Shown: positions 26,814-52,294 of the stretch, one piece after another | How the letters are laid out: the number at the start of each line of letters is the position of its first letter | Numbering within the stretch: position 1 is the stretch's first letter | DNA from: Humidesulfovibrio sp. | Lineage (GTDB): Bacteria; Desulfobacterota; Desulfovibrionia; Desulfovibrionales; Desulfovibrionaceae | NCBI RefSeq assembly: GCF_031082295.1 | Contig: NZ_JAVHLD010000006.1 | Location: forward strand, 62,001 to 126,000 | DNA length: 64,000 nt | Reading direction: 5' to 3' | Position numbers and translations under genes: made by a program | The notes under the pieces: model-generated | Told to the model about the DNA's origin: nothing | Database searches by the model: none | The model's input: only the letters and a program-made list of their open reading frames with translations

Positions 26814-26821
26814 GGGTGAAC

Positions 26822-29673: not shown

Positions 29674-29814
29674 CTGTAATGGCCCTGCCTGTGTTGCGGT
29701 TGCCCCGGCACAAGCGGGCTGGCCGTCTGCGTCGGTTCGAGTTTGATCCTATCAGAAACGCCTGGGGCCAGCAATCCATAATACCCAGGCCAGGCGCGAA
29801 CCAACTCTAAGCGG

Positions 29815-30441: not shown

Positions 30442-30944
30442 ACGCGATTTTGACCGGCCTGGGGGCCTTTGCCGTGTTTGCGCTACTGCATATGGCACTG
30501 TTGCGCCGTGGCGACGCCTTGCGCAGCGTCTCGGCCATTTTCGCCTTAAGTATGTGCGTGCATGTGCTGGCTGTCGCTGCAGAAGCGCTCCTGGCCGTTC
30601 GTCCCAACTACTGGTCCTCTGCCGGGGTGTATTGGTTTCTGCTCATGTTCTGGGTTTATTGCTACGGCACGGCCTACAAGTCCTTGTCAGTGCGCATGCT
30701 GGTGCGCGTGTCGCAGGAGCAGCCCGTGGCGGCCCAGACCCTGGTGGCGGACACGGCCGAAGGCGACTTCGCCGAGCGCATGAACACCCTGCGTGAAATG
30801 GGACTTGCGGAGGAGTCGGGAAGCAGGTGGCGCCTCACTGAGGCCGGTGCAGCCTCGGCCCAGCGTCTCAAGGTTGTGCAGCGTGCGCTTGGCGTTTGCG
30901 GCAGTTCCCTATACGGATGGGAAGAGACGAAGGGTCCAGAATAA
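30438..30944 (+). CDS. Hypothetical membrane protein with wHTH-like C-terminus
   Basis: Hydrophobic N-terminal half then FAERMNTLREMGLAEESGSRWRLTEAGAASAQRLKVVQRALG. Confidence 0.75.
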   Translation: MNAILTGLGAFAVFALLHMALLRRGDALRSVSAIFALSMCVHVLAVAAEALLAVRPNYWSSAGVYWFLLMFWVYCYGTAYKSLSVRMLVRVSQEQPVAAQTLVADTAEGDFAERMNTLREMGLAEESGSRWRLTEAGAASAQRLKVVQRALGVCGSSLYGWEETKGPE

Positions 30945-31625
30945 CCGCGCCAAGGTGCGGGAAACATCCCACAGCGTTCGTAGTCGTAGGGCTTTGCTCT
31001 TGGCCGCATCATCGGGGCGCAGGCTAACCGGCACCTGTACTTTGTCTCGACGGCGCATGAGTAAATGCGCTAGAATTTCCATCTGGTAAGAATACCCGGC
31101 ATAATTGAGGGGCAGGCGCCGGACCTCGGACACGGGCACAGCTATTGGCCCGTGTACATCCTTGACCTGCAGGCCCAAGAGCATGTTCAGGCAGGCTGTA
31201 AACAACCAGGAAAGAACGGCACGCAACGGTGTACGCATCGCAGCTTGATTTTGGCGAAAACCGATAACTATGGCGCTCTCTTTGGTCGCTCCCCAAAAGG
31301 CGGCCATGCTGCCGATGTCGAAGGAGTCGTCTCCCGGGAGGTCGGTGATGGTGTCAAAGCGTGCGCTTGCGAGTGCCTTGCGGTAGCCCTCACCTAGACC
31401 AAGGTTGCGTTCGTTGTGGATAACCACTAACTCTGGATGTCGTGAAGCCAGTTCGTTCATGATCCGCCCGGTGCCGTCAGTGCTGCCGTCGTTGATCATG
31501 ATGACCTCGAAGTGTTCCACGTTGGCCCGAAGACCTTCCACCAGGGCCTCAATCATGGGGCCGATGCATTTTTCTTCGTTTAAGGCCGGCACAAAAACCG
31601 TGAGGCCCGGGGCCCGTTCGCTCAT
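30909..31625 (-). CDS. Glycosyltransferase family 2
   Basis: LTVFVPALNEEKCIGPMIEALVEGL, VIMINDGSTDGTGRIMNELA, NLGLGEGYRKAL, DLPGDDSFD. Confidence 0.93.
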   Translation of the reverse strand: MSERAPGLTVFVPALNEEKCIGPMIEALVEGLRANVEHFEVIMINDGSTDGTGRIMNELASRHPELVVIHNERNLGLGEGYRKALASARFDTITDLPGDDSFDIGSMAAFWGATKESAIVIGFRQNQAAMRTPLRAVLSWLFTACLNMLLGLQVKDVHGPIAVPVSEVRRLPLNYAGYSYQMEILAHLLMRRRDKVQVPVSLRPDDAAKSKALRLRTLWDVSRTLARLFWTLRLFPSV

Positions 31626-32833
31626 GATGTGCTATCGCCCAGCTTGTGGAAAATGGAGAAATGCGAAGGCATGCCCCAGGTCTCTATAAAAGCGTTGTCC
31701 GAAGCGCAGAAGGAGATAGCCTCTGTGGCCTTGCTCGCCATCAGAAGCTCCATGATCTTGATCAGGCTGGCAACGGCCTTGACTGCGCGCCGAGTGTCCG
31801 CCGCACTGGCAAGCATGGTGCGCTCAGGCATGAAGCCCTTGAGCCACTGGAGTAGATCCTGGCATTCCTGCGCGAGCGCCATGTCAAAGGTCGAGATGAG
31901 GCCATCTGAAACGCGCAAAAGCCTTGTGAGCTTGCGCTCCACCTCTGGGTCTTGGGCTACTAGGGCGTGGGTGCGGCCGAAGAGATGCGTCAGCCGATTA
32001 CGGCGGATGGTGTCCACCTGGTGTTCCAACTCCTCCTGCATGCTCATGGGTTGCTTGAACCAGCAGACATGGGACTTGTCGTCGTAGTTTGGCCAGGCGG
32101 AGTAGAGACGAAAACCGTGCTTCTGCATGGCCCGACACAGCCATACGGGATCGTAAAAGAATCCATTGCGTACAAAGGGATTTTCAAGCACGTCAAAGAC
32201 CCAGGCCTCAAGGGCTCGGGTGTGTGGGATGGAGTCCCATTTGTTTTGAAAGATGGCTCGGGCCGCCTCGAAAGAAGTCATGCCAGTGAGTGCCATGATG
32301 CGTTGGTGAATGACCTTGTAGAACAACTCGATAAAGCCGCCGAACTTCTCGCAGTAGAACAGGATCAGCAGACCGTCTTTCTTGAGTATTCGCGCAAACA
32401 GATCCATCCACATTCGCCCGGGGCGTACGGTGTAGATGAAGCCTTCGGCCACCACGGCGTCAAACCGATCGGTATCCAGGCCGCTCTCCGCGTACTGCTT
32501 TAAGTCCAGGGCGTTGAGACTTTTCAAGCGTTCCCCAAGACCGAACTGCTTGAAATAGTTGTTCAGCACCGGATGTGCCTTGCGGTTGGGTTCCACCACA
32601 TGGCAGTTTGCCCCCCACTGGGCATAGACCAGGGTTTTCTCTCCCGTGTCCGGTCCAATCTCCAACACATCCGCCCCGGCGAAAAAGCGAGGATGCAAGG
32701 ACAGTTTGTTTAAAAAAAGGTCCTTGCGGTGTCTTTCATAGTCCAACAGGTCTTGGCGTGAGGTAAAGTTTCCGTGAGTGGGTAATATCTCCGCGCCCTC
32801 ATAGTATTCGTAAAGAGCTTCGTACTCCATCAT
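31622..32833 (-). CDS. Class I SAM-dependent methyltransferase domain protein
   Basis: VLEIGPDTGEKTLVYAQWGANCHVVEPN; FDAVVAEGFIYTVRPGRMWMDLFARILKKDGLLILF. Confidence 0.85.
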   Translation of the reverse strand: MMEYEALYEYYEGAEILPTHGNFTSRQDLLDYERHRKDLFLNKLSLHPRFFAGADVLEIGPDTGEKTLVYAQWGANCHVVEPNRKAHPVLNNYFKQFGLGERLKSLNALDLKQYAESGLDTDRFDAVVAEGFIYTVRPGRMWMDLFARILKKDGLLILFYCEKFGGFIELFYKVIHQRIMALTGMTSFEAARAIFQNKWDSIPHTRALEAWVFDVLENPFVRNGFFYDPVWLCRAMQKHGFRLYSAWPNYDDKSHVCWFKQPMSMQEELEHQVDTIRRNRLTHLFGRTHALVAQDPEVERKLTRLLRVSDGLISTFDMALAQECQDLLQWLKGFMPERTMLASAADTRRAVKAVASLIKIMELLMASKATEAISFCASDNAFIETWGMPSHFSIFHKLGDSTS

Positions 32834-33370
32834 TCAGTCCTTTTTCCTGCCGTGCTCTGCCAATGCCATGGCAAGGCTGCTTAAATGCGCCGCAACGGCT
32901 TCGGCGTCAGTCTCCGCTGGGGCCCAGGGTGCCTGTTCGTTGTCTTCTCGCCGGAATGGCCCGGAGGTGGTCTCGTGGAACACGAAAAAATCTGTGCGAG
33001 GCACCATGCAGTGGTATGCACAGGAGTTTATGCGGAGGTAGAATAAGCCGTCTGCGCCAGGCGCGGCCACGCGAATGACGTCGGTCAGCACACCCTGTTC
33101 GTCAAAAAAAACCACATCGCATTCGCCCTCAATGACGTGCAGGGACTCGGACTTACCGTGGTGGCGGTGGGGGGGAACATACACCCCGCGCGCGTGGCAG
33201 ATGAGCATCTCATGCACTCGGTCCTCGGGGTCCGGGTGGGCGCAGATGCGTGCCCGACGGCGCTGTGAAGCTGCGGCCATGGCCTTCACGGCGTCAAAAT
33301 CGGCCGCGCGTACGCCCACGAGCGGCCCGGTGGCGAAGAGCACTTCGTCGTTGATCCTGTTGAACTGCAT
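32834..33370 (-). CDS. wbuC: WbuC-family cupin-fold protein
   Basis: MQFNRINDEVLFATGPLVGVRAADFDAVKAMAAASQRRRARICAHPDPEDRVHEMLICHARGVYVPPHRHHGKSESLHVIEGECDVVFFDE; start at 33370 rather than the ORF-track start. Confidence 0.88.
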   Translation of the reverse strand: MQFNRINDEVLFATGPLVGVRAADFDAVKAMAAASQRRRARICAHPDPEDRVHEMLICHARGVYVPPHRHHGKSESLHVIEGECDVVFFDEQGVLTDVIRVAAPGADGLFYLRINSCAYHCMVPRTDFFVFHETTSGPFRREDNEQAPWAPAETDAEAVAAHLSSLAMALAEHGRKKD

Positions 33371-33381
33371 AGGCCGTTCCC

Positions 33382-34359
33382 TTACGCCCCGCTGAGGGCG
33401 GTCCACAGCGCCGGGAAGGTCTCCCGGTGCGGACCCTGCACATAATGACTTTTGCCGCCGTCCGCAACCGTGCGCACGAGCATGGTCTTCCAGGGCCGGA
33501 AGTAGTACCCGGCGCTGCCGCGTGGTGCTTCGGCCCGGAAGTCTTCGGGCAGGTCGTGGAGGTCGCACACGAGCGTGGTGAAGCGTTTGACCTCGCGTCC
33601 CTCCTGGCGGGCCATATTGCGCACCATGGCCAGGGCCTTCAGGTAGACCTCCGGCGCGGTGACCGCTGAGCCGAAATTCATGACCACCCCGCCTTCCAGG
33701 CGCTCCATCACCGCGGCCAGCGTCAGGAAATCCCCGTGGCTCGCCGCGCCCCAGGCCGCGCCGTCGCAATTCGGGTGCTCGTGCACAATATCGAGCCCCA
33801 GGCCCACGTGCACGCAGGCCGGGATGCCAAGCCGCCAGGCCGCGGCGAACACGCTCGCCTCGCGGTGCGGGAGGCCGCCTTCCCAGATGGCCCGGCCAAC
33901 GGCTTCGCCCAGGCCCAGGCCTTCGGCCGCAGCCGTTTTGGCGATCTCGTTCAGCCTGCCGGTCTCGTTCCACAGGCCGAACTGGCCATTCTGGATGTAC
34001 CTGGCAACGCTTTCGGTGGTGGCGCCGATGAGTGCGAACTCAAAGTCGTGGATGGCGCAGGCTCCGTTCATGGACAAGCAGTCGATGAGTCCGCGTTCCA
34101 TGAGGTCGATGAGATGGCGCTGCACACCGCTTCGGAGCAGATGTGCGCCCATCATCAGGATGCGTGCCGCCCCCGAGTTGCGTGCGGTCCTCAGATCGTT
34201 AGCTGTATCGGCCAGGGCCGGAGGTACGAAAAGCACTGGTGTGAGCGGGACCAGGATTTGGGTCAGGTCCAAGTCATGCGCGCGTTCGGCCAGGGGCAAG
34301 AGGCGCAAACGCGCGGTGTCGAAGCGGCGGTGGCGCGTGGGCATGATTCCCCCCGGCAC
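33382..34359 (-). CDS. Deoxyhypusine-synthase-like protein of unknown function
   Basis: ARILMMGAHLLRSGVQRHLIDLMERGLIDCLSMNGACAIHDFEFALIGATTESVARYIQNGQFGLWNETG resembles the SGLRDIIxYLVExxxVDVIVTTAGGxEED region of DHS-type proteins. Confidence 0.6.
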   Translation of the reverse strand: MPGGIMPTRHRRFDTARLRLLPLAERAHDLDLTQILVPLTPVLFVPPALADTANDLRTARNSGAARILMMGAHLLRSGVQRHLIDLMERGLIDCLSMNGACAIHDFEFALIGATTESVARYIQNGQFGLWNETGRLNEIAKTAAAEGLGLGEAVGRAIWEGGLPHREASVFAAAWRLGIPACVHVGLGLDIVHEHPNCDGAAWGAASHGDFLTLAAVMERLEGGVVMNFGSAVTAPEVYLKALAMVRNMARQEGREVKRFTTLVCDLHDLPEDFRAEAPRGSAGYYFRPWKTMLVRTVADGGKSHYVQGPHRETFPALWTALSGA

Positions 34360-35888
34360 TATTTCAGCAAAGAGGTGATGAACTTCTGCACAGCGGATTT
34401 CTCGATGGATTTCTGGTTGCCGATGACGCCGACGGCCAGGCCGCCCACGATGTTGCCCAGAAAGGCCACCAACTCGCCAGGCACGCCGAGGCAGGCGGCC
34501 AGGGAGGCCACGGACAAGAAGGCATCTCCCGAACCCACGCGGTCCACCACGCGGGTGGCGAAGGCCGGCACTTCCACGAAATCCTCGGGCTCGTGCATGA
34601 TGGAGCCCTTCTTGCCGGTGGTGACGGCGAACTTCTTGGAGCCGATGCGCAGGGCCGCCCGCTCAATGAGCGGTCGCAGCGGGCTTGTGAGGTCGCGGCA
34701 GTCCAGGCGTATCTCCGGTTCCGCCAGGCTCACGAAGTCCGCGCGGCGGTAGCGCGAGATGGTGTGGAAGCCGCGGTTGCCCGCGTTGGCCTGGGTGTTA
34801 ACGGCCAAAAACGGAGCCTTGTCCTCCATCAGCCTGCGCATGCGCTCGCTGATGGCTCCATGGCCGAAGTCCGCGGCCAGCACCAGGTCGCAACGAGCCA
34901 GCTCACGCTCAAGGGCGGCCAGCATGCGCTCCTCCACCTCGCCGCGCACCCCGGTGTCGTCCATGTGGTAGACCTCGAAGAGCTTGTTGAAGGAGTATCC
35001 TTCCACAAAGCGCTGCTTGCGGATGGTGGGTGCGCCCGGCAGCATCTCAAACTGGGCATGGACGCTTGGGTGCAGCTTCTCGCGGATGAAGTCCTCGCGG
35101 CTGTCGGCCTCGCCCAACACGGAGAGCAGGCGCACCTCGCCGGCGTAGTGCTGCAGATGGTTGGCGATGGCCAGCGCCCCCCCGGCGAAGAGATCGAAGG
35201 ATTCGTGACGCAGGGTCAGGACCGGGTCCTTGGACGAGGTGCCGATGACGTTGGCATAAACGTATTCGTCGAGGATGGTGTCGCCCACCACGAGCACCCG
35301 GAGCTTGCCCATGCGCTCCAACGGCTCCAGCAGGTCCTTTTCCTTATAGCGCTTGCGGAAGAGCGAAAGGTAGGCCTGCACCTCCTCCGGGAAGGTGGAC
35401 AGGAAACGGTTGATGAGGTTCGAGGAGCTGAAGACCACGTCCTCGGTGAAGCGCATCTGGCCGCCCACGGCCTTGATGGCCTCCTCCTCCTGGGCCAGCT
35501 TGCCCGTGGGGTCGCTGGCGGAGTCCTTGAAGTCCGAACCCTTGACGTAGATGTCAGGGCGCAGCAGGCGGATGGTCTCCACAGCCGTGGGCCATTCGTT
35601 GATGGCCACCAGGGCCACGTTGTCCAGGGCGGCCAGGGCCTCGCAGCGCAGGTGCTCGCCGAAGGCCGGGCGGTTAGGGCCTTTGTCCACGTAGCGGTCC
35701 GGGGAGATGGTCACCAGGAGCACGTCGCCCATGGCCCGGGCCTGGTCCAAGTAGCGGATGTGGCCGATGTGCAGGAGATCGAAGCATCCGTGGCAGAGGA
35801 CGATCTTCCGGCCTTCTGCGCGGTGCTGGGCTGCCAGTTCGGCCATTTTGGCCAGGGTCACGATTTTTTTCTTTTTGTTCATGGGCAT
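34359..35888 (-). CDS. Bifunctional nucleotidyltransferase (N-term, RfaE2-like) / PfkB sugar kinase (C-term, RfaE1-like)
   Basis: N-term KIVLCHGCFDLLHIGHIRYLDQARAMGD...DIYVKGSDF...SSSNLINRFL; C-term VVGDTILDEYVYANVIGTSSKDPV...GGALAIANHL...VDRVGSGDAFLSV. Confidence 0.93.
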   Translation of the reverse strand: MPMNKKKKIVTLAKMAELAAQHRAEGRKIVLCHGCFDLLHIGHIRYLDQARAMGDVLLVTISPDRYVDKGPNRPAFGEHLRCEALAALDNVALVAINEWPTAVETIRLLRPDIYVKGSDFKDSASDPTGKLAQEEEAIKAVGGQMRFTEDVVFSSSNLINRFLSTFPEEVQAYLSLFRKRYKEKDLLEPLERMGKLRVLVVGDTILDEYVYANVIGTSSKDPVLTLRHESFDLFAGGALAIANHLQHYAGEVRLLSVLGEADSREDFIREKLHPSVHAQFEMLPGAPTIRKQRFVEGYSFNKLFEVYHMDDTGVRGEVEERMLAALERELARCDLVLAADFGHGAISERMRRLMEDKAPFLAVNTQANAGNRGFHTISRYRRADFVSLAEPEIRLDCRDLTSPLRPLIERAALRIGSKKFAVTTGKKGSIMHEPEDFVEVPAFATRVVDRVGSGDAFLSVASLAACLGVPGELVAFLGNIVGGLAVGVIGNQKSIEKSAVQKFITSLLK

Positions 35889-35933
35889 ATCCCCGGAAGG
35901 GTTTGATGTCTGGCCTGCGACTGGTTCGCGACC

Positions 35934-37001
35934 TTAGACAAAGGCCTGGTGGCGCGGATCTGCGGAGAGATACTCGAGCACCAGTTGGTTCTTGGCGTTG
36001 GCCACGCAGTGGTGGTTGCAATGCTTCGATGGATCGATGGTGAAGAATTTGTCCTTGCCGTTCATCCAGAACTCTCGGAAGCTCTGTTCCCTGATCTCGC
36101 CCAGCACGCCGCTGTCCAGGTTGTAGGCCTTGTCTTGGCAGGAATAGACCCGTTGGTCCGCGCCGATGACCGGCAGCATCTGCAGATACGGGCACCACGT
36201 GTAGTCCTTGGCGAACTTGCCGTCGAGCTCGTGGTAGGTGTCGTAGATCTCCAGGCGCGCGCCGAAGTCGGCCTTGGCCCGGGCGGCCTGCTCCTTTACC
36301 AAGTTGAACACGGGGCGGTGGTATTCGTTGTTGGCCGCGGCATCATTGGCGGTGATGCAGGGCGAGAGCTTCACCGAGTCCACGCCGACGTCGGCCAGCC
36401 GACCGATCTGCTCGTACACGTGGCTGGCGTTGTCCTGGCCGATGATCAGGCTGACTCCCAGGTAGCAGCCTCCGCCCAGAGCCTTGAAGTCTTCCATGTT
36501 GGTCATGATGCGCCGGTATTCGCCCGCGGGGGCGCCGCGAAAGCGCGTGTAGCTCTCGTCGTCCCAGCCGTCCATGGACACGCGCACCCAGACCCCGTGC
36601 TTGGCAAAGATCTTCGCCGTCGGGCCGGACAGGAGCGCGCCGTTGGTCAGGGTGGCGAAGGCCACGGGCGAGTCCGCCAGGCGCTCCAGGGTCTCGACCA
36701 TGTGCGGGTAGCACAGGGGCTCGCCGCCGCCGCTGAAGGTAACGGCCTTGACACCCATGCCGATGATGTCGTCCACGATCTGGAGCATCTTGGCCTGCGG
36801 AATCTTGTCGCGCAGGTCCATGTCCTGGCCCAGCTGCAGCTCCGGGGCGCGATAGGCGCAGTAGGAGCAACGGTGGTTGCAGACGTTCGTCGGCTTGATG
36901 CGGATGTGCACCGGCGGACGGATCTCATCCTTCTCGCGGGGCAGCGAGTCGAGCTTGTCCTGGTAGTGGAAGACCTTGAGCCGGGTGTAGAGATTGCCCA
37001 T
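35934..37001 (-). CDS. Radical SAM protein with SPASM-like C-terminus
   Basis: IRIKPTNVCNHRCSYCAYRAPELQLGQDMD; VTFSGGGEPLCYP; C-terminal WCPYLQ...YSCQDKAYNLDSGVLGEIREQSFREFW...CNHHC. Start at internal Met (37001). Confidence 0.93.
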   Translation of the reverse strand: MGNLYTRLKVFHYQDKLDSLPREKDEIRPPVHIRIKPTNVCNHRCSYCAYRAPELQLGQDMDLRDKIPQAKMLQIVDDIIGMGVKAVTFSGGGEPLCYPHMVETLERLADSPVAFATLTNGALLSGPTAKIFAKHGVWVRVSMDGWDDESYTRFRGAPAGEYRRIMTNMEDFKALGGGCYLGVSLIIGQDNASHVYEQIGRLADVGVDSVKLSPCITANDAAANNEYHRPVFNLVKEQAARAKADFGARLEIYDTYHELDGKFAKDYTWCPYLQMLPVIGADQRVYSCQDKAYNLDSGVLGEIREQSFREFWMNGKDKFFTIDPSKHCNHHCVANAKNQLVLEYLSADPRHQAFV

Positions 37002-37012
37002 GCGTTTCGCCC

Positions 37013-37675
37013 CTATTCGAAGAAGATGAATTCGTAGTCGCCGGTGTAGCCGAAATGTTTGAAGAGCCAGATCCACTCGCGCTCGGAGAAGAACGACTCG
37101 CAGGTCAGCGCCCAGCACTGCAGGTTGAAGAGCTCCCGATTGTTTCTGTAGCTCTCGACCATGACGTAGGCGCTTCTGCCCACCCGCTCGATCTCGCCCA
37201 GGGCCTTGGCCAGGTCGTCGATCTCCAGGTTGAACACGCAGCCAAGCGAAAGCACAAGGTCGAAGTGCTTGTCGGCGAAGGGCAGCTCGTCCTGGGCGCG
37301 GCCCTGGCGCAGGAACGGCCGGATGGCCTCGGGCGCGGTGGCTAGGCCATGGGTTGAAATATCCAGGCCGAGGACCTCGGCTCCGGGCAGTAGCAGCTTC
37401 AGTTCATGCAGCAGGTGCGCCTTGCCGCAGCCCAGGTCAAGAATGCGCGAGGCGTCCGTCAGGCGGTAATGCTCGATGATGCGCTCGGCCACGGGCTTCC
37501 AGCGGCCGTCGTAGCGGTAGCCGCCATAACCGAAGCGCCGGTCGCCGTCCCAGTAGTCGGCCTCGTACTCCTTGGCCTTGCCCATGCACAGCACCTTGTC
37601 GTCTACCATGCGCGCGAGGTAGTCGCGCTTGGTGCTGGTGTGCAGCGGGGTCACGAGGTTCAGCTTCTCGCCCAC
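37013..37675 (-). CDS. Class I SAM-dependent methyltransferase
   Basis: RILDLGCGKAHLLHELKLLLPGAEVLGLDIS; FDLVLSLGCVFNLEIDDLAKALGEIERVGRSAYVMVES. Confidence 0.9.
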   Translation of the reverse strand: MGEKLNLVTPLHTSTKRDYLARMVDDKVLCMGKAKEYEADYWDGDRRFGYGGYRYDGRWKPVAERIIEHYRLTDASRILDLGCGKAHLLHELKLLLPGAEVLGLDISTHGLATAPEAIRPFLRQGRAQDELPFADKHFDLVLSLGCVFNLEIDDLAKALGEIERVGRSAYVMVESYRNNRELFNLQCWALTCESFFSEREWIWLFKHFGYTGDYEFIFFE

Positions 37676-37677
37676 TC

Positions 37678-39462: not shown

Positions 39463-39463
39463 G

Positions 39464-40591
39464 TCAGAACTCGTAGGGGAACGACTCGTGTTCGAGGTTG
39501 AGGCGCGCAAGCAGCGCCCGGGCCTTGGACAATTGCCCCGCGCGCGCGGCCCTGGCCACCTGGGCTCCGGCAAAGCGGCGGCGCTCCCTGGCGGCCGGGA
39601 GAAATTCATTCAACAGGATCAGGCACCAGTTAATTCCGAAGAGGGGATACAGGCAGCGGACGCGTTTGTCGAGGGCCGGGTCGGCCTGAAACAGTTGCCC
39701 CAGCCCCTGCACGAAACGCTGGCCTTGCTTGGAGCCGAGCCCTGTTCCTGGATGCAGGAGCGCGTCCGAGAGCATTTTGGCCGGGTCGTCCCAGCCGAAA
39801 TATTCGAAGTCCAGAAACACCAGCCCGCGCTCCGGCGTGCGCAGGGCGTTGTGCAGGCCGAAGTCCGAGGGGCTCAAGGTGCAGCGCTCGCGCGGCAAGG
39901 GGGTCTGCGGATCGACGCCGATGCGGGCCAGGCCGTTCATCCCGTGATCCCGGAATCGTGCCAGGGCCGGGCGCAGCTCCCGGTCCAGGAAAAGGCGCAG
40001 CTCAGCCAGCAGCGACTGGTCGTCCGGCCCTTCGCCGGTCCAGACGCTTTCCTGGTCAAAGGCATCCAGGCGGCGAAGGATCTCCCCGTCCAGCAGCGCC
40101 GCCGGAGCCAGGCAGGCCGCCGAGGCCAAGGGCAGCGCCTCTGCCTCGGGCTGTCTGCGCAGTTCCCACAGGCGCAGGGCGAAAGCGGCCATGGCCGCGG
40201 CGTCGTCCACGCTGCCAGCGCCCGGCGCGGTGTGATCACCGCCAATGAACTCGTAGGCCGCCACCCCGGCATGTGCGTCCGCGGCGACAGGCTGCGGCAC
40301 GCAGGAGACCCCTGCCTTTGCCAGAAAGGTCAGCGTGCCGAACTCCACGCTCAGGCGGTCTCGCGGATCCCCAGGCGCGTGGTGGTAGCATTTCCCGGCC
40401 AGGGTCCGGCCATCGGTCAGGGTCAGGCGGTAGGCGCGGCTGTTGCGGCCAGCCAGGATGGGCCAGGCATCTGCCACGGCACAACCGAGCAGGGCCGCGA
40501 ACGCGGCCACGTCGCCAGCCAGGTGCTGGGCCGGGTCGGTGGTCGGCTGGGCAGGCGCGGGCCTAGTTGGATCAAGGGTGTGGGAAGACAT
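39464..40591 (-). CDS. Aminoglycoside-phosphotransferase-like (APH/choline kinase fold) family protein
   Basis: CTLSPSDFGLHNALRTPERGLVFLDFEYFGWDDPAKMLSDALLHPG (H-x-D-F-G-x-H-N variant Brenner motif); start near 40591/40603. Confidence 0.83.
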   Translation of the reverse strand: MSSHTLDPTRPAPAQPTTDPAQHLAGDVAAFAALLGCAVADAWPILAGRNSRAYRLTLTDGRTLAGKCYHHAPGDPRDRLSVEFGTLTFLAKAGVSCVPQPVAADAHAGVAAYEFIGGDHTAPGAGSVDDAAAMAAFALRLWELRRQPEAEALPLASAACLAPAALLDGEILRRLDAFDQESVWTGEGPDDQSLLAELRLFLDRELRPALARFRDHGMNGLARIGVDPQTPLPRERCTLSPSDFGLHNALRTPERGLVFLDFEYFGWDDPAKMLSDALLHPGTGLGSKQGQRFVQGLGQLFQADPALDKRVRCLYPLFGINWCLILLNEFLPAARERRRFAGAQVARAARAGQLSKARALLARLNLEHESFPYEF

Positions 40592-41231
40592 GGCCGAAGA
40601 CATAGCCCATGATGCCCCGCCAGTCCACAAAACGACGGACAAGGGCGTCGCCGGTGGCCTCGAGGGTTGGCGGCAGCGGCGCAAGGAGCAGCCGCTCCAC
40701 GTCCGGGGGGAAATCCTCGTGGGCAAAGACTTCCGGCAGGTCGTCGATGAAATGGGTGCAGCCAAGCTCGCGGATGCGCGCCACCTTTTCGCGCCGGGTG
40801 GGCTCGAAGAACACCTGCTCCTCGGCAAGCCCCAGGCCAGCCTTGGACATGTCGAAGAACTTGTGCTGGCGCAGAAAGGCGAGGGCGCACCTGCGCAGGT
40901 CAGTGACGCCGTCGCCGCCGCGCGCGAACTGCGTCTTGTGGCTCACCACCACCACCGGCAGGTCCGCATCGCGGCAGCGCCGGAAGAACGCGGCCACGCC
41001 GGGCAGGAGCTCGGCTCCGCTGATGCGCGGGCCATAGGCCAAGGCCTGCAGGCGCTGCCAGTGGTTCTCGCCATCGGGTAGCAGGCGCACGGCGTCGCGT
41101 ACGGCGGTCTTGCCCCGGATAGCGCCGGTGGCCAGCGCGCAGGGCGCAAGCAGTCCGGACTCGGAGGCCAGGGCTTCGAAGAGCCGATCGTACCCGGCGA
41201 TGGTGTTGTCGAAGTCCACCCCTATGCGCAT
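40572..41231 (-). CDS. HAD-like phosphatase/hydrolase
   Basis: MRIGVDFDNTIAGYDRLFEAL (DxDxT-like), VVVVSHKTQFA, CTHFIDDLPEVF. Confidence 0.85.
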   Translation of the reverse strand: MRIGVDFDNTIAGYDRLFEALASESGLLAPCALATGAIRGKTAVRDAVRLLPDGENHWQRLQALAYGPRISGAELLPGVAAFFRRCRDADLPVVVVSHKTQFARGGDGVTDLRRCALAFLRQHKFFDMSKAGLGLAEEQVFFEPTRREKVARIRELGCTHFIDDLPEVFAHEDFPPDVERLLLAPLPPTLEATGDALVRRFVDWRGIMGYVFGHVFPHP

Positions 41232-41274
41232 GGCTGCCCTGTTCTCTGTCGCCGTGGGGTTCGCGGTCACAGGC

Positions 41275-42339
41275 TTAGATGAAGTTCACATGCCCGCCGG
41301 GGTGCTTGAGCTCCCAGAGGTAGCGGTTGATCTCGTCCATGCGGCAGTTGACGCGGCAGTCGGCCGGGTTGAGCGCGGCCGTGAGGCGCAGGGACTCGGC
41401 GCGTCGGGGGCCTTCCCAGATGGCCTGGAACGTCTCGTCGTTGATGTTTCCGTAGAGGAAACGCTCGTCCTCCAGGTACACGCTGCAGCCCCACACTCCG
41501 CCCCCGGCGTCGATGTAGGACCAGAATGGCAGGGCCTGGCAGCGTTTGTAGCCGCGTTCCTTGGCGTCCCACTTGCGCATGGCGTTCAGCCGGAAGATCA
41601 CGGAGAAGTCCTTGGTGGACAGGGCGTTGACCTTCTCCGCCAGGGACTCGTATCCGGAGTAGGTGATGTTCTCGTGGGAGTGGGTGTTGCTCTGGGGATG
41701 CTGGGAATAGGGCTTGACCACCAGGTAGTCCAGGCCCAGGTCGCGGCAAGTCAGGGCCAGGGTCTCGATTTCGTCCTGGTTCTCCGGCAACAGCAGGGTC
41801 TGCAGGCCGAGGGTGCAGCCCGCGCCGGAGGCCTTGCGCAGACGCACAGCCTGGCGCAGGTTGTCCATGACCTTATCAAAGTCCTTGGGGTCGGTGCCGT
41901 GAATGCGGCCGTAGGTTTCGGCCGTGCCGGCGTTGCAGCTCACCTTGACCCAGGAGGTAACGGGCATGACAGCCTCGGCCACCTCGGGCTTGAAGAGCAC
42001 GGCGTTTGTGGTGAAGGCCACGTCGATGCCCGAGGCCTTGGTGTGGCGGGCGATCTCCACCATGTCCTTGTGCAGGAAGGGCTCGCCTTCGCCAGCGAAC
42101 ATGATGCTCTTGAGCCCCAGGCCGCCCATTTCGGTCAGGCGTTCCTTGAACAGCGCGGTGTCGAGCCTGCGCGGCTTGTAGCCCATGAAGTCCAGCCCGC
42201 AGAACACGCAGCGGTGGTTGCAGGCCCCGATGGGACTGACCTCCATGTACAGCGGGTACACGGTTTTGCCCTCCAGCCAGTCGGCCACGCGGCGGGGATG
42301 GAACAGAAGCTTGTGGGAGTCGATGCGGTAGTCGCTCAT
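41275..42339 (-). CDS. Radical SAM protein with SPASM-like C-terminus
   Basis: MEVSPIGACNHRCVFCGLDFMGYKPRRLD; MFAGEGEPFLHKDM; C-terminal CQALPFWSYIDAGGGVWGCSVYLEDERFLYGNINDETFQAIW. Confidence 0.93.
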   Translation of the reverse strand: MSDYRIDSHKLLFHPRRVADWLEGKTVYPLYMEVSPIGACNHRCVFCGLDFMGYKPRRLDTALFKERLTEMGGLGLKSIMFAGEGEPFLHKDMVEIARHTKASGIDVAFTTNAVLFKPEVAEAVMPVTSWVKVSCNAGTAETYGRIHGTDPKDFDKVMDNLRQAVRLRKASGAGCTLGLQTLLLPENQDEIETLALTCRDLGLDYLVVKPYSQHPQSNTHSHENITYSGYESLAEKVNALSTKDFSVIFRLNAMRKWDAKERGYKRCQALPFWSYIDAGGGVWGCSVYLEDERFLYGNINDETFQAIWEGPRRAESLRLTAALNPADCRVNCRMDEINRYLWELKHPGGHVNFI

Positions 42340-42360
42340 GTAGGGGCTCCGGCGGCGCTA

Positions 42361-42942
42361 TTAGGGGTGCCGCACCATGCTGTCGGTCCAGTGGTGCAGA
42401 ATGGCTGCGTGGGCGGTCTCCGCCAAGCCGTAGGTTGCGGCCGGAACGTAGAAGTTGAGGTCGCCCAGGCTGCGCAGGGCGTTGTCCGGCCCCATGGCCG
42501 AGAGGGTCACCACGGCTCCGCCCTGCCTGCGCGCGGCGCTGGCCGCGGCCACGACATTGGGCGAATTGCCCGAGCTGCTGATGAGCACCAGCATGTCCTG
42601 CTCGGCCATGTACCAGCCCACCGGCTCGGAGAACACGTCGGGGTAGGACATGTCGTTGCCCAGCGCGGTCAGAAGGGCGGGGTCGGTGAAGACCATGGTG
42701 CGCAGGCCCGCGTTCTTGGCCAAGTCCGCGGAGAAGTGGCTGGCCATGGAGGCGCTGGCCCCGTTGCCCGCGAGGTAGCAGAAGCCCTTGGCCTGGCGCA
42801 CCCGGCAGGTCAGTTCGGCCAGTGCGGAAAAGCCCTCAGGTCCGAGTTCACGGCCTTCAAGGTCGCGCACGGAAAGGGCCTGCATGGAGGCGTGAAGCGC
42901 GTCAAGATACTGCGGCCAACTTCGGTCTGTGTGGGCGGTCAT
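42361..42942 (-). CDS. SIS-domain phosphosugar isomerase (GmhA-like)
   Basis: GNGASASMASHFSADLAKNAGLR; DMLVLISSSGNSPNVVAAASAARRQGGAVVTLSAMG; GLAETAHAAILHHWTDSM. Confidence 0.88.
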   Translation of the reverse strand: MTAHTDRSWPQYLDALHASMQALSVRDLEGRELGPEGFSALAELTCRVRQAKGFCYLAGNGASASMASHFSADLAKNAGLRTMVFTDPALLTALGNDMSYPDVFSEPVGWYMAEQDMLVLISSSGNSPNVVAAASAARRQGGAVVTLSAMGPDNALRSLGDLNFYVPAATYGLAETAHAAILHHWTDSMVRHP

Positions 42943-42955
42943 AACGGTCCTTTGC

Positions 42956-43675
42956 CTAGTCGGCGATGCAGCGCAAATAGCCCTCGGGTGCGGCGCTGAC
43001 CACCAACCGGTCCTCGATGTCGCGGTCGACCTCAAAGCGCTTGTTGGTTTTCAGGAATTCCCGCACGGCGGTTTTGGGGTTGTTTCCCTTGCCCCAGGGG
43101 CGGTCCGGGAAGGCGTCTTCCGGGCAGTCCTCTATGGCGGTGTCGAAGACAAGCAGATAGGACCCCTTCTTCACCAGGGGCGAGTAGAGTTCCAGCTCGC
43201 GCAGGACATGCTCGTGGGTGTGGTTGGAGTCCAGCACCACGATGACGCGCTCCGCGTCCTTGGCCTGTGCATACACGGCGTCTGCGGTTGCTTGGTCGAT
43301 GGACGAACCCTGGATGAGGCTGATTCTGTGGGCCAGCTTGTGCGCTTCGATTGCAGCCCGGTTGTGTGGGCGGATATCGATATCCACGCCAAGCACTCGC
43401 CCATGACCGATGAGCTCCAGCATGGAGGCCGAGAGGACGAGCGAACCGCCGTGCGCCACACCGGTTTCGACCACGAGGTCGGGCCGCACGCGCCAGAGGA
43501 TCTCCTGCCAAGCCATGACGTCCTGCGGGTGCTGGATGACTGGGATGCCAAGCCAGGTGAATCCGTAGGTGTAGCGATAGGGCCGGGTGGCATCCTTCCA
43601 GCGGCGGGTCAGGTCGGTAAGCGTGGAATCCTCGGCCATGCGGCGGGCCAACTCACGCTGGGTGCTGTCGTTCAT
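42956..43675 (-). CDS. CmcI / cephalosporin-hydroxylase-like family methyltransferase
   Basis: FTWLGIPVIQHPQDVMAWQEILWRVRPDLVVETGVAHGGSLVLSASMLELIG, DIDIRPHNR, VVLDSNHTHEHVLRELELYSPLV. Confidence 0.92.
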   Translation of the reverse strand: MNDSTQRELARRMAEDSTLTDLTRRWKDATRPYRYTYGFTWLGIPVIQHPQDVMAWQEILWRVRPDLVVETGVAHGGSLVLSASMLELIGHGRVLGVDIDIRPHNRAAIEAHKLAHRISLIQGSSIDQATADAVYAQAKDAERVIVVLDSNHTHEHVLRELELYSPLVKKGSYLLVFDTAIEDCPEDAFPDRPWGKGNNPKTAVREFLKTNKRFEVDRDIEDRLVVSAAPEGYLRCIAD

Positions 43676-43703
43676 CTGTGTTCCTGCGGTTTGCGGCGTC
43701 GGC

Positions 43704-43958
43704 CTAGCCGAGCTTCCCGGTGATGTAGGTAGCCAGCGGACCGAACACGCTGGCGTGTCCCTTAAGGTCCTCCTCGGGGATGTTCACCCCGAACTCCTCT
43801 TCGATTCGGAAGAGCGCGCTGATAAGATCCAGGGAGTCCATCCCCAGGTCTTTGGTCAAAACGGCAGTCTCCAACTGCTCCTGGGGGTAGTCTTTGGCCT
43901 TGCGGCAGGACTCGCACAGGATGGCGAAGAGTTTCTCGGATACTTCTGATCTGGTCAT
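43704..43958 (-). CDS. Acyl carrier protein
   Basis: KDLGMDSLDLISALFRIEEEFGVNIPEEDLKGH with DSL phosphopantetheinylation motif. Confidence 0.92.
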   Translation of the reverse strand: MTRSEVSEKLFAILCESCRKAKDYPQEQLETAVLTKDLGMDSLDLISALFRIEEEFGVNIPEEDLKGHASVFGPLATYITGKLG

Positions 43959-44926
43959 GTGTTCTCCGTGGCGAAGAGGATGGTGCTGCACCAGGAAAGG
44001 CCAACGCCGAACCCGGTGATGACGACGCTTGCAGGACGTGAGGCAAGCGGTAGGACGCGGCGCATGAGGGCCATGGGAATGGACGAGGACACGGTGTTGC
44101 CCACGTCCTCGATGTCGACGACCAGTCGGCCTTCAGGCACGCCGAGTCGGCGGGCGAGCATTTCCAGCATGTAGCTGCTGGCCTGGTGCGGTACGCAAAG
44201 GCTAACGTTGTCCATGGTCAATTCATTGGCAGCAAGGCAGCGTGCCACACTTGGCGGAATCTCCTGCATCATGAAATTGAAGATGCTCCGACCATCCATG
44301 AACAGCAGGCCGTCGCCGTCCTTGCGCGTGCCGCTGCCCCGCGCGATGAGCGCGTCTGAGCGGCTGCCGTCGGTGCCGAACACAAAACGACCTGCCACGA
44401 AGATGGGGCTATCTGTGAGCAGGGTGGCGCAGGCTCCGTCACCGAAGAGCGGGGCCGTACTGCGGTCCGCCGGGTCGATGATTTTACCGTAGGCCTCGGT
44501 GGTGATGAGGAGTCCGCACGTGAGGCCGTGAGTCTGCATGAAGGCCGTGGCCGTGGCCAAGCCATAGACAAAGCCGGAGCAGCCCAGGCCGATGTCCAGT
44601 GCTGCCACACTGGTAGGCAGGCCGAGAGCGTGCTGGACCAGGGCCGAGACCTGGGGGAGGCAGTAGTCCGGGGTTTGGGTGACCACTGCCAGGAATTGTA
44701 CCTCCGCCGGATCAAGCCCGCTTTGCTCCAGCACGGCGCGTCCTGCGGCTGCGGCCATGTGGCTTACGTGCTCGTCTGCGGCGGCGCGGTGGCGGGAGCG
44801 AATCCCGAGTTTCTGGTCCAGAAAATCAGGGTCGAACCCATGCTGGGCCACAAGCTCATGGTTCTCCAGGTTGGCCTGGGGCAGATACGCGGCGATGGCG
44901 CGAATGCCGATCTTCGTTGGACTCAC
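43955..44926 (-). CDS. 3-oxoacyl-ACP synthase III (KAS III / FabH-like)
   Basis: ALDIGLGCSGFVYGLATA (Cys), LCVPHQASSYMLEML (His), VDIEDVGNTVSSSIPMAL (Asn). Confidence 0.93.
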   Translation of the reverse strand: MSPTKIGIRAIAAYLPQANLENHELVAQHGFDPDFLDQKLGIRSRHRAAADEHVSHMAAAAGRAVLEQSGLDPAEVQFLAVVTQTPDYCLPQVSALVQHALGLPTSVAALDIGLGCSGFVYGLATATAFMQTHGLTCGLLITTEAYGKIIDPADRSTAPLFGDGACATLLTDSPIFVAGRFVFGTDGSRSDALIARGSGTRKDGDGLLFMDGRSIFNFMMQEIPPSVARCLAANELTMDNVSLCVPHQASSYMLEMLARRLGVPEGRLVVDIEDVGNTVSSSIPMALMRRVLPLASRPASVVITGFGVGLSWCSTILFATENT

Positions 44927-44948
44927 GAGATATCCTTCACTCCGGCCT

Positions 44949-45671
44949 CTAAGCTAGGCGGACCTTTTTCATATGTCGGACGTTGGCCCGGCGAATGGCT
45001 GTATCCACGGCGTCCACGACGGACTCCTTTGGAAGGTCGCGCATGAGCGCGAGCAGGGCCTTTTTGCCGGGCCAGTAGGCCCCGTTACGCAGAGCCTTGA
45101 TGCGCTGGTATTCCTCCACTAGGCAGGAGGTGCTGACGGTGTCGGAACGCTTCTGTCCCTTGCGGAACGCACCCCTGTGAATCCCCTCAGGCAGGAAGCC
45201 GAACAGAACCTGGTAGCGCTGCCAGGCCTCCAACTCCACGCACTGCTCACCCCAGACGCGCTCCAGGCCAAGGGTGTCAAAGGCGTGCTGGACCATGAGC
45301 GCCTTGGTTTCCAGCCCCTCGAAGACAGCATTGCCAGAACGTTCGCGCGACCCCATGATGAGCCCGAAGTGGGCCTGCCGGGTGATGAAGTCGATGTCCT
45401 TCAGGTGCGCCACGCCGATCACTCCCGCGCCGCCCTTGGGCAGCACCAGGAGCACCAGGGCGTTTTGGCCAGGCTGGCGCAGGTTGGCCAGTTTTTCCCG
45501 CTGCTGAGCGCGCGAGTTGGGGAACAGACCCATGTTCACCAAGTGACGTGTCACATCAGGATCGTTAAACCATGCATGCCAGCCGTCAGCCTCCACGGCC
45601 CGCTCATCAGGTGCGATGAGATCCACGGTTTCCCCGGCCAGGAATACGTCGCGCGCGCCGTCTGTGCTCAT
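44949..45671 (-). CDS. GNAT family N-acetyltransferase
   Basis: WHAWFNDPDVTRHLVNMGLFPNSRAQQREKL, VIGVAHLKDIDFITRQAHFGLIMGSRERSGNAVFEGLETKALMVQHAFDTLGLERVWGE. Confidence 0.87.
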   Translation of the reverse strand: MSTDGARDVFLAGETVDLIAPDERAVEADGWHAWFNDPDVTRHLVNMGLFPNSRAQQREKLANLRQPGQNALVLLVLPKGGAGVIGVAHLKDIDFITRQAHFGLIMGSRERSGNAVFEGLETKALMVQHAFDTLGLERVWGEQCVELEAWQRYQVLFGFLPEGIHRGAFRKGQKRSDTVSTSCLVEEYQRIKALRNGAYWPGKKALLALMRDLPKESVVDAVDTAIRRANVRHMKKVRLA

Positions 45672-46324
45672 GGTGCCTCCTGCTGCAAAAAGTTGAAGCA
45701 GATGACGGCTGGCGGGCCGTCTTGTCCCGGCCAGGTGACCTGGCTCAGGGTGTAGTCCACACCACCGATGCGGCGTAAGCTGCGGTTGCGGAACAGCAGC
45801 AGCGGCCTGTCGCCCTCACCGCACGGCGACGTGAGGGGGCAGCGTTCCAGGTACACTAGGCGGATTTCCGGCGTTAAAAGCCCCTGGCTGGCCAGAGTGG
45901 CCTGATGCAGGGCCTTGTTGGCCTCAACAACGCCGTTGATGAAACCGTACGCCGAGAGCCCCGGCACAAGTTCGGCCTCCCCGGAAAAATCCGCGCCAGG
46001 ATACACCGCAGTCACCGGCGGCGGTGGCGCATCGATTCGCCCGGTTACAAATGGGCCGTTGGCCAGGAAACGAGCCTGTTGCGGCTGCCCCTGCGAATCC
46101 AGAAAGTCCAGCGTGGCAGAAGCGCTACCTTCCTCATCCGGTCCCAGAAGCCAACATCCTTGCCGGGTCACCGGACGCTGCATCTTGAACGACGCGACGA
46201 ACGTCGGCACCAAGTCCGGCTTGGCCTGGGCTATTGCCCGGAGGAACACTTCCAGCAGCTCCGCGCCCCGGATATGGCTGCGCGAGCCGAGAAAATTCAG
46301 GGGGAGCATCGGAAGTGCTGTCAT
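45668..46324 (-). CDS. Hypothetical protein (possibly hotdog-like) in ACP/KAS module
   Basis: ORF coupled (4-nt overlap) to the downstream GNAT gene; SFKMQRPVTRQGCWLLGPDEEGSASATLDFLDSQGQPQQARFL suggests a beta-rich acyl-handling fold, not recognised with certainty. Confidence 0.65.
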   Translation of the reverse strand: MTALPMLPLNFLGSRSHIRGAELLEVFLRAIAQAKPDLVPTFVASFKMQRPVTRQGCWLLGPDEEGSASATLDFLDSQGQPQQARFLANGPFVTGRIDAPPPPVTAVYPGADFSGEAELVPGLSAYGFINGVVEANKALHQATLASQGLLTPEIRLVYLERCPLTSPCGEGDRPLLLFRNRSLRRIGGVDYTLSQVTWPGQDGPPAVICFNFLQQEAP

Positions 46325-46385
46325 GTAAGCCAGGCTGGTTTGAACGTTTCGAGGCAATTGTCACTAGCATAGGCGGCATTGGAGA

Positions 46386-47429
46386 TCAAGCCGGGTCAGG
46401 TGGGTGCTCGCGCATGTGCGCGGCCAGGCGGTCCAGCTCCTGGCGTTCCTCCGGACCGAGGGTGGGCGGGTGATCAAGGTGCGCGGCCAGGCGTGCAGCG
46501 CGCTCGGCGTCGGTCTGGTCTTGCTGCTGCCGCCTTATTCCGGGCGAAAGGGCCAAGGCCATGCGCCGGGCGTACTTGGGCAGCTTGCGCCAGAAGGGCT
46601 TGCGTTGCCTGGCCGGGCATTCACGCTCCAGGTATAGAGCCAGGGCGGCATCCACCGCTCCACGGGCCTCTGGCGCCGGGAGTCCGGTCCTTTTTGCCAG
46701 GTGTTCGGACACATGGGCGACGAAGCGCTCCAGGCGCTGCGGCCCGTCCGGCAGCATTGGCAGTTTTTCAATGCTGTCGCGGGAACGCTTTTGAACGCTC
46801 GGAACGTCCTCGCGCAGCACGTATGTAACAGGCAAAACCGCGCGCTTGCCGTTAATGGCAGTGACCATTGCCGAAAGCAGTTCGCGGCAGGCGTAGAAGG
46901 CCAAGCCGTCCAGGGCGGGGTCGAAGACCGGTTGCCACGCCTCCAAGCGCTGCACGCTGTAGTAAGTGGGGCTGTAGGTCGTGAATAATTCCAGGAGCCG
47001 TTCGGCTGGAAGATCGGCCTCGACGCGCGTTTGGAAATCGCGCTCGTAGGAGGCATCGAGCAGGAGTTCATCTCCCCGGCGCACTGCCTGGAACTGGCGC
47101 CCGTGGGCCGTGGCGTAGTCCGGGTTGGCATCCAGGAATGCCGCGCACGCCAAAAGCCCCGAGTGCGACAGGAGCATGTCGTCGGCGGCAAAGGCCACAT
47201 AGGGGGTGTGCACGTGCTCCAAGGCCTGACGCACCTTGCGGGCGTAGACTGTGGCCGGGGTGTGCAGATAGACTGTATGGGCGGGGGCGGCCTGCGGGGG
47301 CAAGGGGCTGGGAGTTGAGTCGGCCACCACCAGCGGCAGGGCGAAGTCGGCGTAATGGGCCAAGGCGCGGCAGAGCAGCGTGGGCCTGCCGTGAGAGGGG
47401 ATGAGTATGGTTACGTTTGGCTGGGACAT
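46386..47429 (-). CDS. Glycosyltransferase (GT2-like, TIGR00180-type)
   Basis: NVTILIPSHGRPTLLCRALAHYADFALPLVVADST; PYVAFAADDMLLSHSGLLACAAFLDANPDY. Confidence 0.85.
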   Translation of the reverse strand: MSQPNVTILIPSHGRPTLLCRALAHYADFALPLVVADSTPSPLPPQAAPAHTVYLHTPATVYARKVRQALEHVHTPYVAFAADDMLLSHSGLLACAAFLDANPDYATAHGRQFQAVRRGDELLLDASYERDFQTRVEADLPAERLLELFTTYSPTYYSVQRLEAWQPVFDPALDGLAFYACRELLSAMVTAINGKRAVLPVTYVLREDVPSVQKRSRDSIEKLPMLPDGPQRLERFVAHVSEHLAKRTGLPAPEARGAVDAALALYLERECPARQRKPFWRKLPKYARRMALALSPGIRRQQQDQTDAERAARLAAHLDHPPTLGPEERQELDRLAAHMREHPPDPA

Positions 47430-50186: not shown

Positions 50187-50221
50187 GTTATACGCGCTTG
50201 ACGCAGGGAGGAACTCCGCTC

Positions 50222-51373: not shown

Positions 51374-51395
51374 TAGGAACCGGAAGGAGCAGCAC

Positions 51396-52175: not shown

Positions 52176-52270
52176 CCCTGGCCTGAAGCTCCATCCCCGT
52201 AGCTCTATCGCAACAGGCTTCCCTCGTCCCTGGCGCCTTGCCAGGACCTGCCATGTGCGGGTATACGGGG

Positions 52271-52294
52271 CCGACCGTCGGCTTTGGCGGTCGG
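52271..52294 (+). terminator. Hairpin CCGACCG-N10-CGGTCGG between rfbF and the ABC exporter
   Basis: Read directly; no strong U-tract, so could equally be a leader structure. Confidence 0.3.

Follow-up and report, generated by a model that had tools for sequence, protein, structure and literature searches.

A conserved gene cassette with heptose-type, radical SAM and split-transketolase enzymes in a 19-gene operon of Humidesulfovibrio sp.

The rear part of a 19-gene operon in the analysed window, a 64,000-nucleotide stretch of the Humidesulfovibrio sp. genome, carries a conserved cassette that consists of a GmhA-like isomerase (SIS), a radical SAM enzyme (RS1), a HAD protein, an APH-family kinase, a split transketolase (TK), a methyltransferase (MTa), a second radical SAM enzyme (RS2), an inverted HldE (NTK) and a GSU2086-family protein. 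Taken as a whole route, the chance is about even that it represents a modular cassette, spread by horizontal transfer, whose enzymes make a nucleotide-activated heptose-class sugar and elaborate it for a surface glycan; both the product and every reaction are what we infer. The cassette is apparently widely conserved but undescribed: no description of the heptose/transketolase/radical SAM combination was found in the open literature searched. The operon consists of two unrelated parts, a lineage-specific front of six genes and the rear with the cassette.

Re-checking of the open reading frames, starts and domains gave 19 tightly packed genes from 47429 to 30909, all on the minus strand (Table 1), the same layout as had been proposed in a sequence-only reading of this DNA. 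After refinement of the start codons by eye and by homology, all 18 junctions ranged from a 20-nt overlap (HAD end 40572/APH start 40591) to a 45-nt gap (RS2 end 35934/NTK start 35888). The overlaps previously placed at 45671/45668, 43958/43955 and 31625/31622 and the abutments at 38611/38610 and 32834/32833 were correct; the pair 41231/40591 proved to be the two start coordinates of HAD and APH and no junction, while 34359/34359 stands with a GTG start but not with the ATG at 34344, which leaves 14 nt. The earlier domain calls for SIS, both radical SAM enzymes, APH, split TK, WbuC, KAS III, ACP, GNAT and CmcI held, and the nucleotidyltransferase (NTase)-PfkB fusion was confirmed to be of inverted order. 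A divergent gene starts upstream at 47595 (+), and approximately 1.2 kb downstream of the operon (~29674-30908) contain no supported gene; a repeat search in this gap found one imperfect inverted pair and nothing notable. Scanning of the operon gave no excess of promoter-like (5 versus 2.8 in shuffles) or terminator-like sites (14 versus 14.0), so that the scan neither splits the operon nor proves it, and division by internal promoters or terminators was dropped as a candidate explanation.

Table 1. Genes of the operon in order of transcription, with window coordinates and main identifying evidence
Gene product	Coordinates	Strand	Evidence
TIGR04440-family glycosyltransferase, first gene, accessory	46386..47429	-	NCBIfam 144 bits vs cut-off 70
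Orphan protein, accessory	45668..46357	-	no Pfam/NCBIfam match
GNAT acyltransferase, accessory	44949..45671	-	PF13302 36.8 bits
KAS III-like ketosynthase, accessory	43955..44926	-	NF006829 251.6 vs cut-off 249
Acyl carrier protein (ACP), accessory	43704..43958	-	PF00550 34 bits; DSL motif intact
CmcI / rhamnosyl O-methyltransferase family, accessory	42956..43675	-	PF04989 292 bits
SIS, GmhA-like isomerase, cassette core	42361..42942	-	SIS_2 48 bits
RS1, radical SAM/SPASM enzyme, cassette core slot	41275..42339	-	PF04055 + SPASM
HAD-fold phosphatase, TK-linked module	40572..41231	-	DxDNT and further HAD positions conserved
APH-family kinase, TK-linked module	39464..40591	-	PF01636 27 bits vs 23.2
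Split transketolase (TK), N subunit	38611..39462	-	PF00456 140 bits
Split transketolase (TK), C subunit	37678..38610	-	PF02779/PF02780
MTa, class I SAM methyltransferase, cassette	37013..37675	-	PF13847/PF08241
RS2, second radical SAM enzyme, cassette	35934..37001	-	PF04055 74 bits
NTK, nucleotidyltransferase-PfkB kinase fusion, inverted vs HldE, cassette core	34359..35888	-	TIGR02199, TIGR02198
GSU2086-family protein (DHS-like), cassette core	33382..34344	-	NF052581 374 vs cut-off 250 bits
WbuC-family cupin, frequent surface-glycan companion	32834..33370	-	TIGR04366 133 bits vs 42
MTb, methyltransferase-domain protein, 403 aa, accessory	31622..32833	-	PF13489 51 bits
GT2 glycosyltransferase, last gene	30909..31625	-	PF00535 67 bits

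The cassette genes recurred together in Desulfobacterota, Nitrospirota, Nitrospinota, Planctomycetota, Omnitrophota and Methanoperedens, including one archaeal locus (L106). In the surroundings of the GSU2086 homologues recovered by a genome-wide scan (93 loci), NTK was present in 78, SIS in 49, RS1 in 46, TK in 45/42, MTa in 25, HAD in 23 and APH in 22, and the homologues of window genes were nearly always on the same strand. The 20 loci of the order selected by RS1 contained NTK (19), SIS (19), the GSU2086 family (18), split TK within the cassette (16) and a PDH-E1-like pair (2). The window gene order is permuted relative to most loci, with NTK and the GSU2086 gene at the end, and the distance correlations were weak for many pairs of cassette genes, indicating that the modules shuffle; we do not claim that the cassette travels as one block. 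The GSU2086 family had no match in phage records, and a phage origin was therefore rejected; two plasmid records carry the family.

None of the front genes was found beside the cassette in other genomes, except for one weak match of the glycosyltransferase (24%, opposite strand). The orphan had only a match of 25% identity and 20 bits among 246 other genomes of the order, in which neither GNAT (E<=1e-15) nor KAS III (E<=1e-70) had a homologue at the thresholds used. The proposal that all 19 genes, KAS III, ACP and GNAT included, form one dedicated glycolipid pathway draws on the single strand, the tight junctions throughout and the intact KAS III and ACP motifs (Cys-His-Asn in the former, which scored 211 bits against a fabH cut-off of 292), but with KAS III, GNAT and the orphan lacking a clear counterpart in these 246 genomes and the front genes absent from cassettes elsewhere, we consider it improbable. 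For the same reason ACP and KAS III were discarded as the core of a conserved system. The synteny expected earlier was thus found for the rear modules, which do co-occur across phyla, and not for ACP/KAS III; the KAS III/ACP/GNAT/CmcI block would represent a separate, lineage-specific module for acyl or methyl decoration.

The core of the cassette resembles the ADP-L-glycero-D-manno-heptose pathway (GmhA-HldE-GmhB-HldD) in its step types: SIS isomerase, PfkB kinase and nucleotidyltransferase. It differs in the inverted NTase-kinase order, in scores below the family cut-offs, in altered SIS metal ligands and in a HAD that was not recognised as GmhB, and it goes beyond that pathway with the GSU2086-family protein, APH, the split TK and the radical SAM pair. 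The lincosamide octose pathway (LmbR/N/P/K/O), which joins a C2/C3-transfer enzyme to SIS isomerase, kinase, phosphatase and nucleotidyltransferase steps, has a logic similar to that of the cassette, but its enzyme families appear to differ. SIS reached ~62 bits with the GmhA model TIGR00441 (cut-off 209). Of the zinc/catalytic residues of GmhA, H61, E65, Q172/175 and H180/183 (PMC5387315), both His ligands are kept, while the E65 position is D in 45/45 and the Q172 position E in 44/44, so that two of the GmhA zinc ligands are changed throughout (E65D, Q172E). NTK scored far below the HldE-type cut-offs (TIGR02198 102 versus 345, TIGR02199 108 versus 181.5, NF008454 153 versus 521 bits); in contrast to HldE, with its N-terminal kinase and C-terminal NTase, the NTase preceded the kinase in 64/64 fusions, the window's included. 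Both the NTase HxGH and the kinase GSGD motif (HxGH and GxGD in HldE) are present in the window protein. A separate intact NTase accompanied all fusions without HxGH (23/23) and none of those that kept it (40/40), and since loss is always paired with a separate intact NTase, this activity looks to be required in the cassette. The HAD protein, without a match in Pfam and NCBIfam, had an AF2 model of HAD fold (pLDDT 90) with 5'(3')-deoxyribonucleotidases and other HADs as Foldseek matches, and its identification as GmhB was rejected on both counts. The GmhA/HldE/GmhB logic suggested previously is therefore retained as a heptose-type nucleotide-sugar pathway with radical SAM chemistry, but not with the canonical enzymes themselves.

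The third core protein, earlier termed DHS-like, does have similarity to the deoxyhypusine synthase (DHS) fold and belongs specifically to the GSU2086 family, NCBIfam NF052581 (374 versus 250 bits). Its AF2 model (pLDDT 89) matched LOR/SDH, ArgZ and DHS in Foldseek, the last with E ~1e-7 and TM ~0.5, and hhalign against DHS gave a probability of 95.8 (E 7.6e-9), by which modelling it appears as a distant relative of DHS, remote from characterised enzymes. Fold and N-terminal motif similarity are shared with DHS and ArgZ-type ornithine cyclodeaminase, in contrast to the conserved C-terminal motifs, which are different, and the location with sugar enzymes. The SWGK region with the catalytic lysine of DHS falls outside the profile alignment, and the invariant Lys286 in RPWK of the GSU2086 family is a candidate only. 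In Geobacter sulfurreducens GSU2085-GSU2087 are given as hldE, GSU2086 and gmhA in a table of PMC5585712, where all three are listed as affecting electrode growth; as far as this table goes, Geobacter and the window have the NTK-GSU2086-SIS triad in common, to which the window adds RS1, HAD, APH, TK, MTa and RS2.

Such annotations of the Geobacter genes in that table, together with the resemblance of SIS and NTK to GmhA and HldE, might suggest a backup route to ordinary L,D- or D,D-manno-heptose for core LPS. This is very unlikely, because the genome has canonical genes for HldE (355 bits), GmhA (195 bits) and HldD (398 bits) at other places; besides, the cassette enzymes are far below the family cut-offs with altered SIS metal ligands, radical SAM enzymes and TK are not needed for ordinary heptose, and the cassette occurs in an archaeon, a group lacking LPS. 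The presence of the canonical enzymes rather makes the cassette a second, diverged heptose-type route.

RS1 family members all possess CxxxCxxC (56/56), and the nearest solved structures of RS1, BlsE and DesII, both act on sugars. In other loci its slot is taken by a GalE-like SDR (reductase). An RS1 orthologue and an in-slot SDR were not seen together in any locus; six apparent co-occurrences at loose thresholds came from weak (24-35%) SDR matches that did not lie in the slot or, in L081, from a gene on the opposite strand. The CxxxCxxC motif is also present in RS2, whose loci invariably contained MTa (27/27).

The TK has both halves, the ThDP motif and the catalytic residues of a transketolase: the N subunit retains the GDG...N motif and His residues, and the C subunit, with the split TK 6yaj of C. 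hydrogenoformans as its nearest solved structure (179 bits), the catalytic Glu, TH and YIRL positions. APH and HAD were seen only alongside TK (27/27 and 18/18, respectively). In other loci the TK slot is occupied by a PDH-E1-like pair, and the two are largely exclusive (together in 2/15; p 0.001, which is nominal since the loci share ancestry); in L163 and L166 this pair lies beside an RS1 58-60% identical to that of the window. Three ThDP classes have been implicated in the branching of keto sugars, and both of these types, PDH-E1-like alpha/beta pairs and split TKs, are among them, although for split TKs this has not been shown in vitro according to a 2025 review, whose 13 candidates are all from Streptomycetes (PMC12247030). 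ThDP-dependent C2-branching of keto sugars is known for YerE and alphaKADH2 enzymes such as AviB1/B2, and a split TK has been proposed for branching in miharamycin/amipurimycin (PMC12247030, PMC4425429). As in these systems, a sugar-modifying enzyme of the cassette stands next to a split TK or a PDH-E1-like pair, but the cassette differs by a heptose-type instead of a hexose nucleotide context, by a radical SAM enzyme in the oxidoreductase slot and by its location in surface-glycan-type loci across phyla.

We favour a route with an NDP-heptose core, which RS1 oxidises or epimerises and TK then elaborates, perhaps by branching, the latter resting on the slot swapping and the published analogy. 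SIS would turn the phosphate of a ketose into that of an aldose, and the GSU2086-family protein may use NAD for a step such as epimerisation, probably redox-neutral, on the sugar or sugar-phosphate; the PfkB domain of NTK would phosphorylate C1, and the NTase domain would activate the sugar. RS1 may oxidise or epimerise one sugar carbon, and the thiamine enzyme could transfer a C2 unit onto the carbonyl made by RS1, resulting in a branched higher sugar. RS1 could also be an epimerase yielding no ketone, and HAD and APH, which would serve the transketolase branch, have no clear role in branching. Further decoration would be done by MTa and RS2, and WbuC, found near 10/77 cassette loci, and the glycosyltransferases would place the sugar in the glycan. 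In its most specific form, as a C2-branched heptose system shared by bacteria and archaea with a divergent NDP-heptose core, a carbonyl made by radical SAM or SDR and a split TK or PDH-E1-like branching enzyme, the proposal is tentative.

Precursor supply without branching is a possible, yet not a probable, alternative: the split TK would make sedoheptulose-7-P or an unusual longer ketose phosphate, from which SIS, kinase, HAD and NTase would produce a nucleotide-linked heptose or octose for tailoring by the radical SAM enzymes. TK does keep the ThDP-binding, catalytic and sugar-binding positions, the enzymes from TK to NTase represent the step types of heptose synthesis, and a strict association of HAD and APH with TK is expected of a phosphate-handling unit. 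Yet many NTK-GSU2086-SIS loci are without TK, and canonical GmhA is already fed with sedoheptulose-7-P by housekeeping metabolism. The role of TK as a mere supplier of sedoheptulose-7-P, assumed in the sequence-only reading, is doubtful since the PDH-E1-like pair in its slot in L163 and L166 would, by its family chemistry, not make this compound.

The cassette, which many environmental bacteria and at least one archaeon carry, offers a defined set of genes for what is probably a new surface sugar, and it places the GSU2086 family, with its listed effect on Geobacter electrode growth, in a sugar pathway. The natural swaps (RS1/SDR, transketolase/PDH-E1, fused/separate nucleotidyltransferase) give testable predictions, and they bear on whether split transketolases branch keto sugars, which is unproven according to the 2025 review (PMC12247030).

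The 19 genes form a real, operon-like run on a draft genome of 3.45 Mb; 3' of it, about 1.2 kb carries no supported gene. Domain and family profile matches upheld the gene identities of the sequence-only reading, the distant deoxyhypusine synthase relative now being placed in NCBIfam NF052581 (GSU2086 family). The minus-strand genes beyond the gap possibly represent a second glycan operon, and the divergent plus-strand run is a possible export and transfer partner.

Features of the window and of two loci from elsewhere
Location	Coordinates	Strand	Content
Window	47429-30909	-	operon, 19 genes, junctions from -20 to +45 nt
Window	28696-29673	-	radical SAM/SPASM gene, beyond the 1.2-kb gap
Window	26822-28690	-	B12-binding radical SAM gene, beyond the same gap
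Window	25725-26879	-	DegT aminotransferase, beyond the radical SAM pair
Window	24552-25715	-	LPG-synthase-TM protein, beyond the radical SAM pair
Window	47595-55167	+	divergent run (first gene starts at 47595): YfhO-like membrane protein, DegT aminotransferase, NTP transferase, ABC exporter, GT9 heptosyltransferase-family gene
Window	55229-59116	-	1295-aa ORF; class I/II aminotransferase, CbiA and GATase_3 domains; CobD-CobQ-like fusion
L100	10001-11500		stand-alone nucleotidyltransferase in one open frame with GSU2086 gene
L191, Chloroflexota plasmid plas-ZRK	12-13093		GSU2086-family gene grouped with genes for HAD, PfkB and SIS

All 19 operon proteins were compared by tblastn with 93 loci around GSU2086 homologues, some of which are one genome region fetched twice, so that the counts are approximate: the nucleotidyltransferase-PfkB kinase fusion (NTK) was present in 78, the SIS isomerase in 49, the first radical SAM enzyme (RS1) in 46, the split transketolase (TK) subunits N and C in 45 and 42, the methyltransferase MTa in 25, HAD in 23, the APH-like kinase in 22 and the second radical SAM enzyme (RS2) in 17. 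KAS III, ACP, GNAT, CmcI and the orphan were found in none of the 93, and the operon's first glycosyltransferase matched one, weakly. KAS III, GNAT and the orphan also had no counterpart at the thresholds used in the 246 other genomes of the order, where the sole orphan match reached 20 bits. The front half of the operon is thus lineage-specific, and the earlier inclusion of ACP/KAS III in the cassette pathway does not hold. The KAS III and ACP motifs are intact, so that GNAT might receive an acyl group from the front block for transfer.

Of the 247 genomes of the order, 29 have an RS1 orthologue. Reciprocally, 20 RS1 neighbourhoods were fetched and scanned for cassette genes: NTK was present in 19 (the contig of the remaining one stops before it), SIS in 19 and the GSU2086-family gene (DHS) in 18. 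Sixteen of these neighbourhoods have split TK within the cassette, and two have a PDH-E1-like pair. The commonest order is NTK-DHS-SIS-RS1-HAD-APH-TKN-TKC-(MT)-MTa-RS2; the window keeps this gene set but carries NTK-DHS at the end. Distance correlation between modules was weak for many gene pairs, indicating that the modules shuffle. The core also resides on Solidesulfovibrio carbinolicus plasmid pDCAR1, adjoining NeuB-family and pseF genes. Four NeuB-family genes in the window's own genome (contigs C71, C33 with two, and C12) point to several nonulosonic-acid glycan loci there.

The cassette is not the canonical heptose route, whose enzymes are encoded on other contigs of this genome: HldE scores 355 bits and passes its cut-off, GmhA falls slightly short at 195 bits, and HldD reaches 398 bits. 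The cassette's NTK scores far under the HldE cut-offs and is nucleotidyltransferase-first, as in 64/64 fusions examined. Cassette SIS proteins retain both histidine zinc ligands of GmhA (positions in PMC5387315), but Glu65 is replaced by Asp (45/45) and Gln172 by Glu (44/44), and five residues of the active-site loop are missing in 39/45; Glu and Gln are unchanged in the canonical GmhA of this genome. Metal-dependent isomerisation remains plausible, probably on a different substrate. In 23 loci the HxGH motif of the fusion has lost its second His and reads HPG plus I, M or V; a stand-alone nucleotidyltransferase with intact HxGH adjoins the fusion in 22, and in the 23rd, L100, it shares one reading frame with the GSU2086 gene, possibly as a fusion protein. 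No stand-alone enzyme was found in the 40 loci whose fusion retains HxGH. For the two groups of loci together p is 4e-16, nominal given shared ancestry, and selection thus apparently maintains nucleotide activation.

Cassette loci are interrelated and partly redundant, their genes were called mechanically, and counts are threshold-dependent. PDH-E1-like alpha/beta subunits substitute for split TK, which is absent in 13/15 such loci; neither HAD (18/18) nor APH (27/27) is found without TK; and all 27 RS2 loci carry MTa. In some loci a GalE-like SDR occupies the position of RS1 (e.g., L033, L034, L045, L046, L053, L056, L065, L066, L110), and no RS1 orthologue was found alongside an SDR in that slot. 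The TK catalytic positions are intact. TK had been read as supplier of the heptose precursor; this is probably wrong, since the PDH-E1-like pair filling the same slot would not, by its family chemistry, yield sedoheptulose-7-P. The closest solved relatives of RS1, BlsE and DesII, act on sugars. A review names as ThDP enzymes branching, or proposed to branch, keto sugars the YerE-like decarboxylases, PDH-E1-like alphaKADH2 pairs and split TKs, the last unproven in vitro and represented by 13 candidates, all from Streptomycetes (PMC12247030). Together, the swap, these precedents and the RS1 relatives favor a TK that would tailor, perhaps branch, the sugar.

The GSU2086-protein model (pLDDT 89) matches LOR/SDH, ArgZ/AgrE and deoxyhypusine synthase (E ~1e-7, TM ~0.5), and profile comparison of the family with genuine deoxyhypusine synthase gave probability 95.8 (E 7.6e-9). 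Relatives in this fold use NAD for amine chemistry without net redox change, from which we infer an NAD-dependent sugar step. In L191, PfkB is heptose-kinase-like, SIS is GmhA-like, no nucleotidyltransferase is recognisable and a sugar ABC importer, Gfo/Idh and deoC adjoin; the locus resembles a catabolic form of the core, and its gene company suggests that the GSU2086-family protein acts at sugar or sugar-phosphate level. For the HAD model (pLDDT 90), the fold matches are 5'(3')-deoxyribonucleotidases and do not single out GmhB. For Geobacter GSU2085-2087 (hldE, GSU2086, gmhA), negative electrode-growth scores are listed (PMC5585712).

Cassettes occur in Desulfobacterota, Nitrospirota, Nitrospinota, Planctomycetota, Omnitrophota and Methanoperedens. 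The heptose-type pathway first proposed was right in outline, and by these comparisons the cassette is widespread and modular, encodes a probable heptose-type sugar route and is apparently undescribed in the open-access literature.
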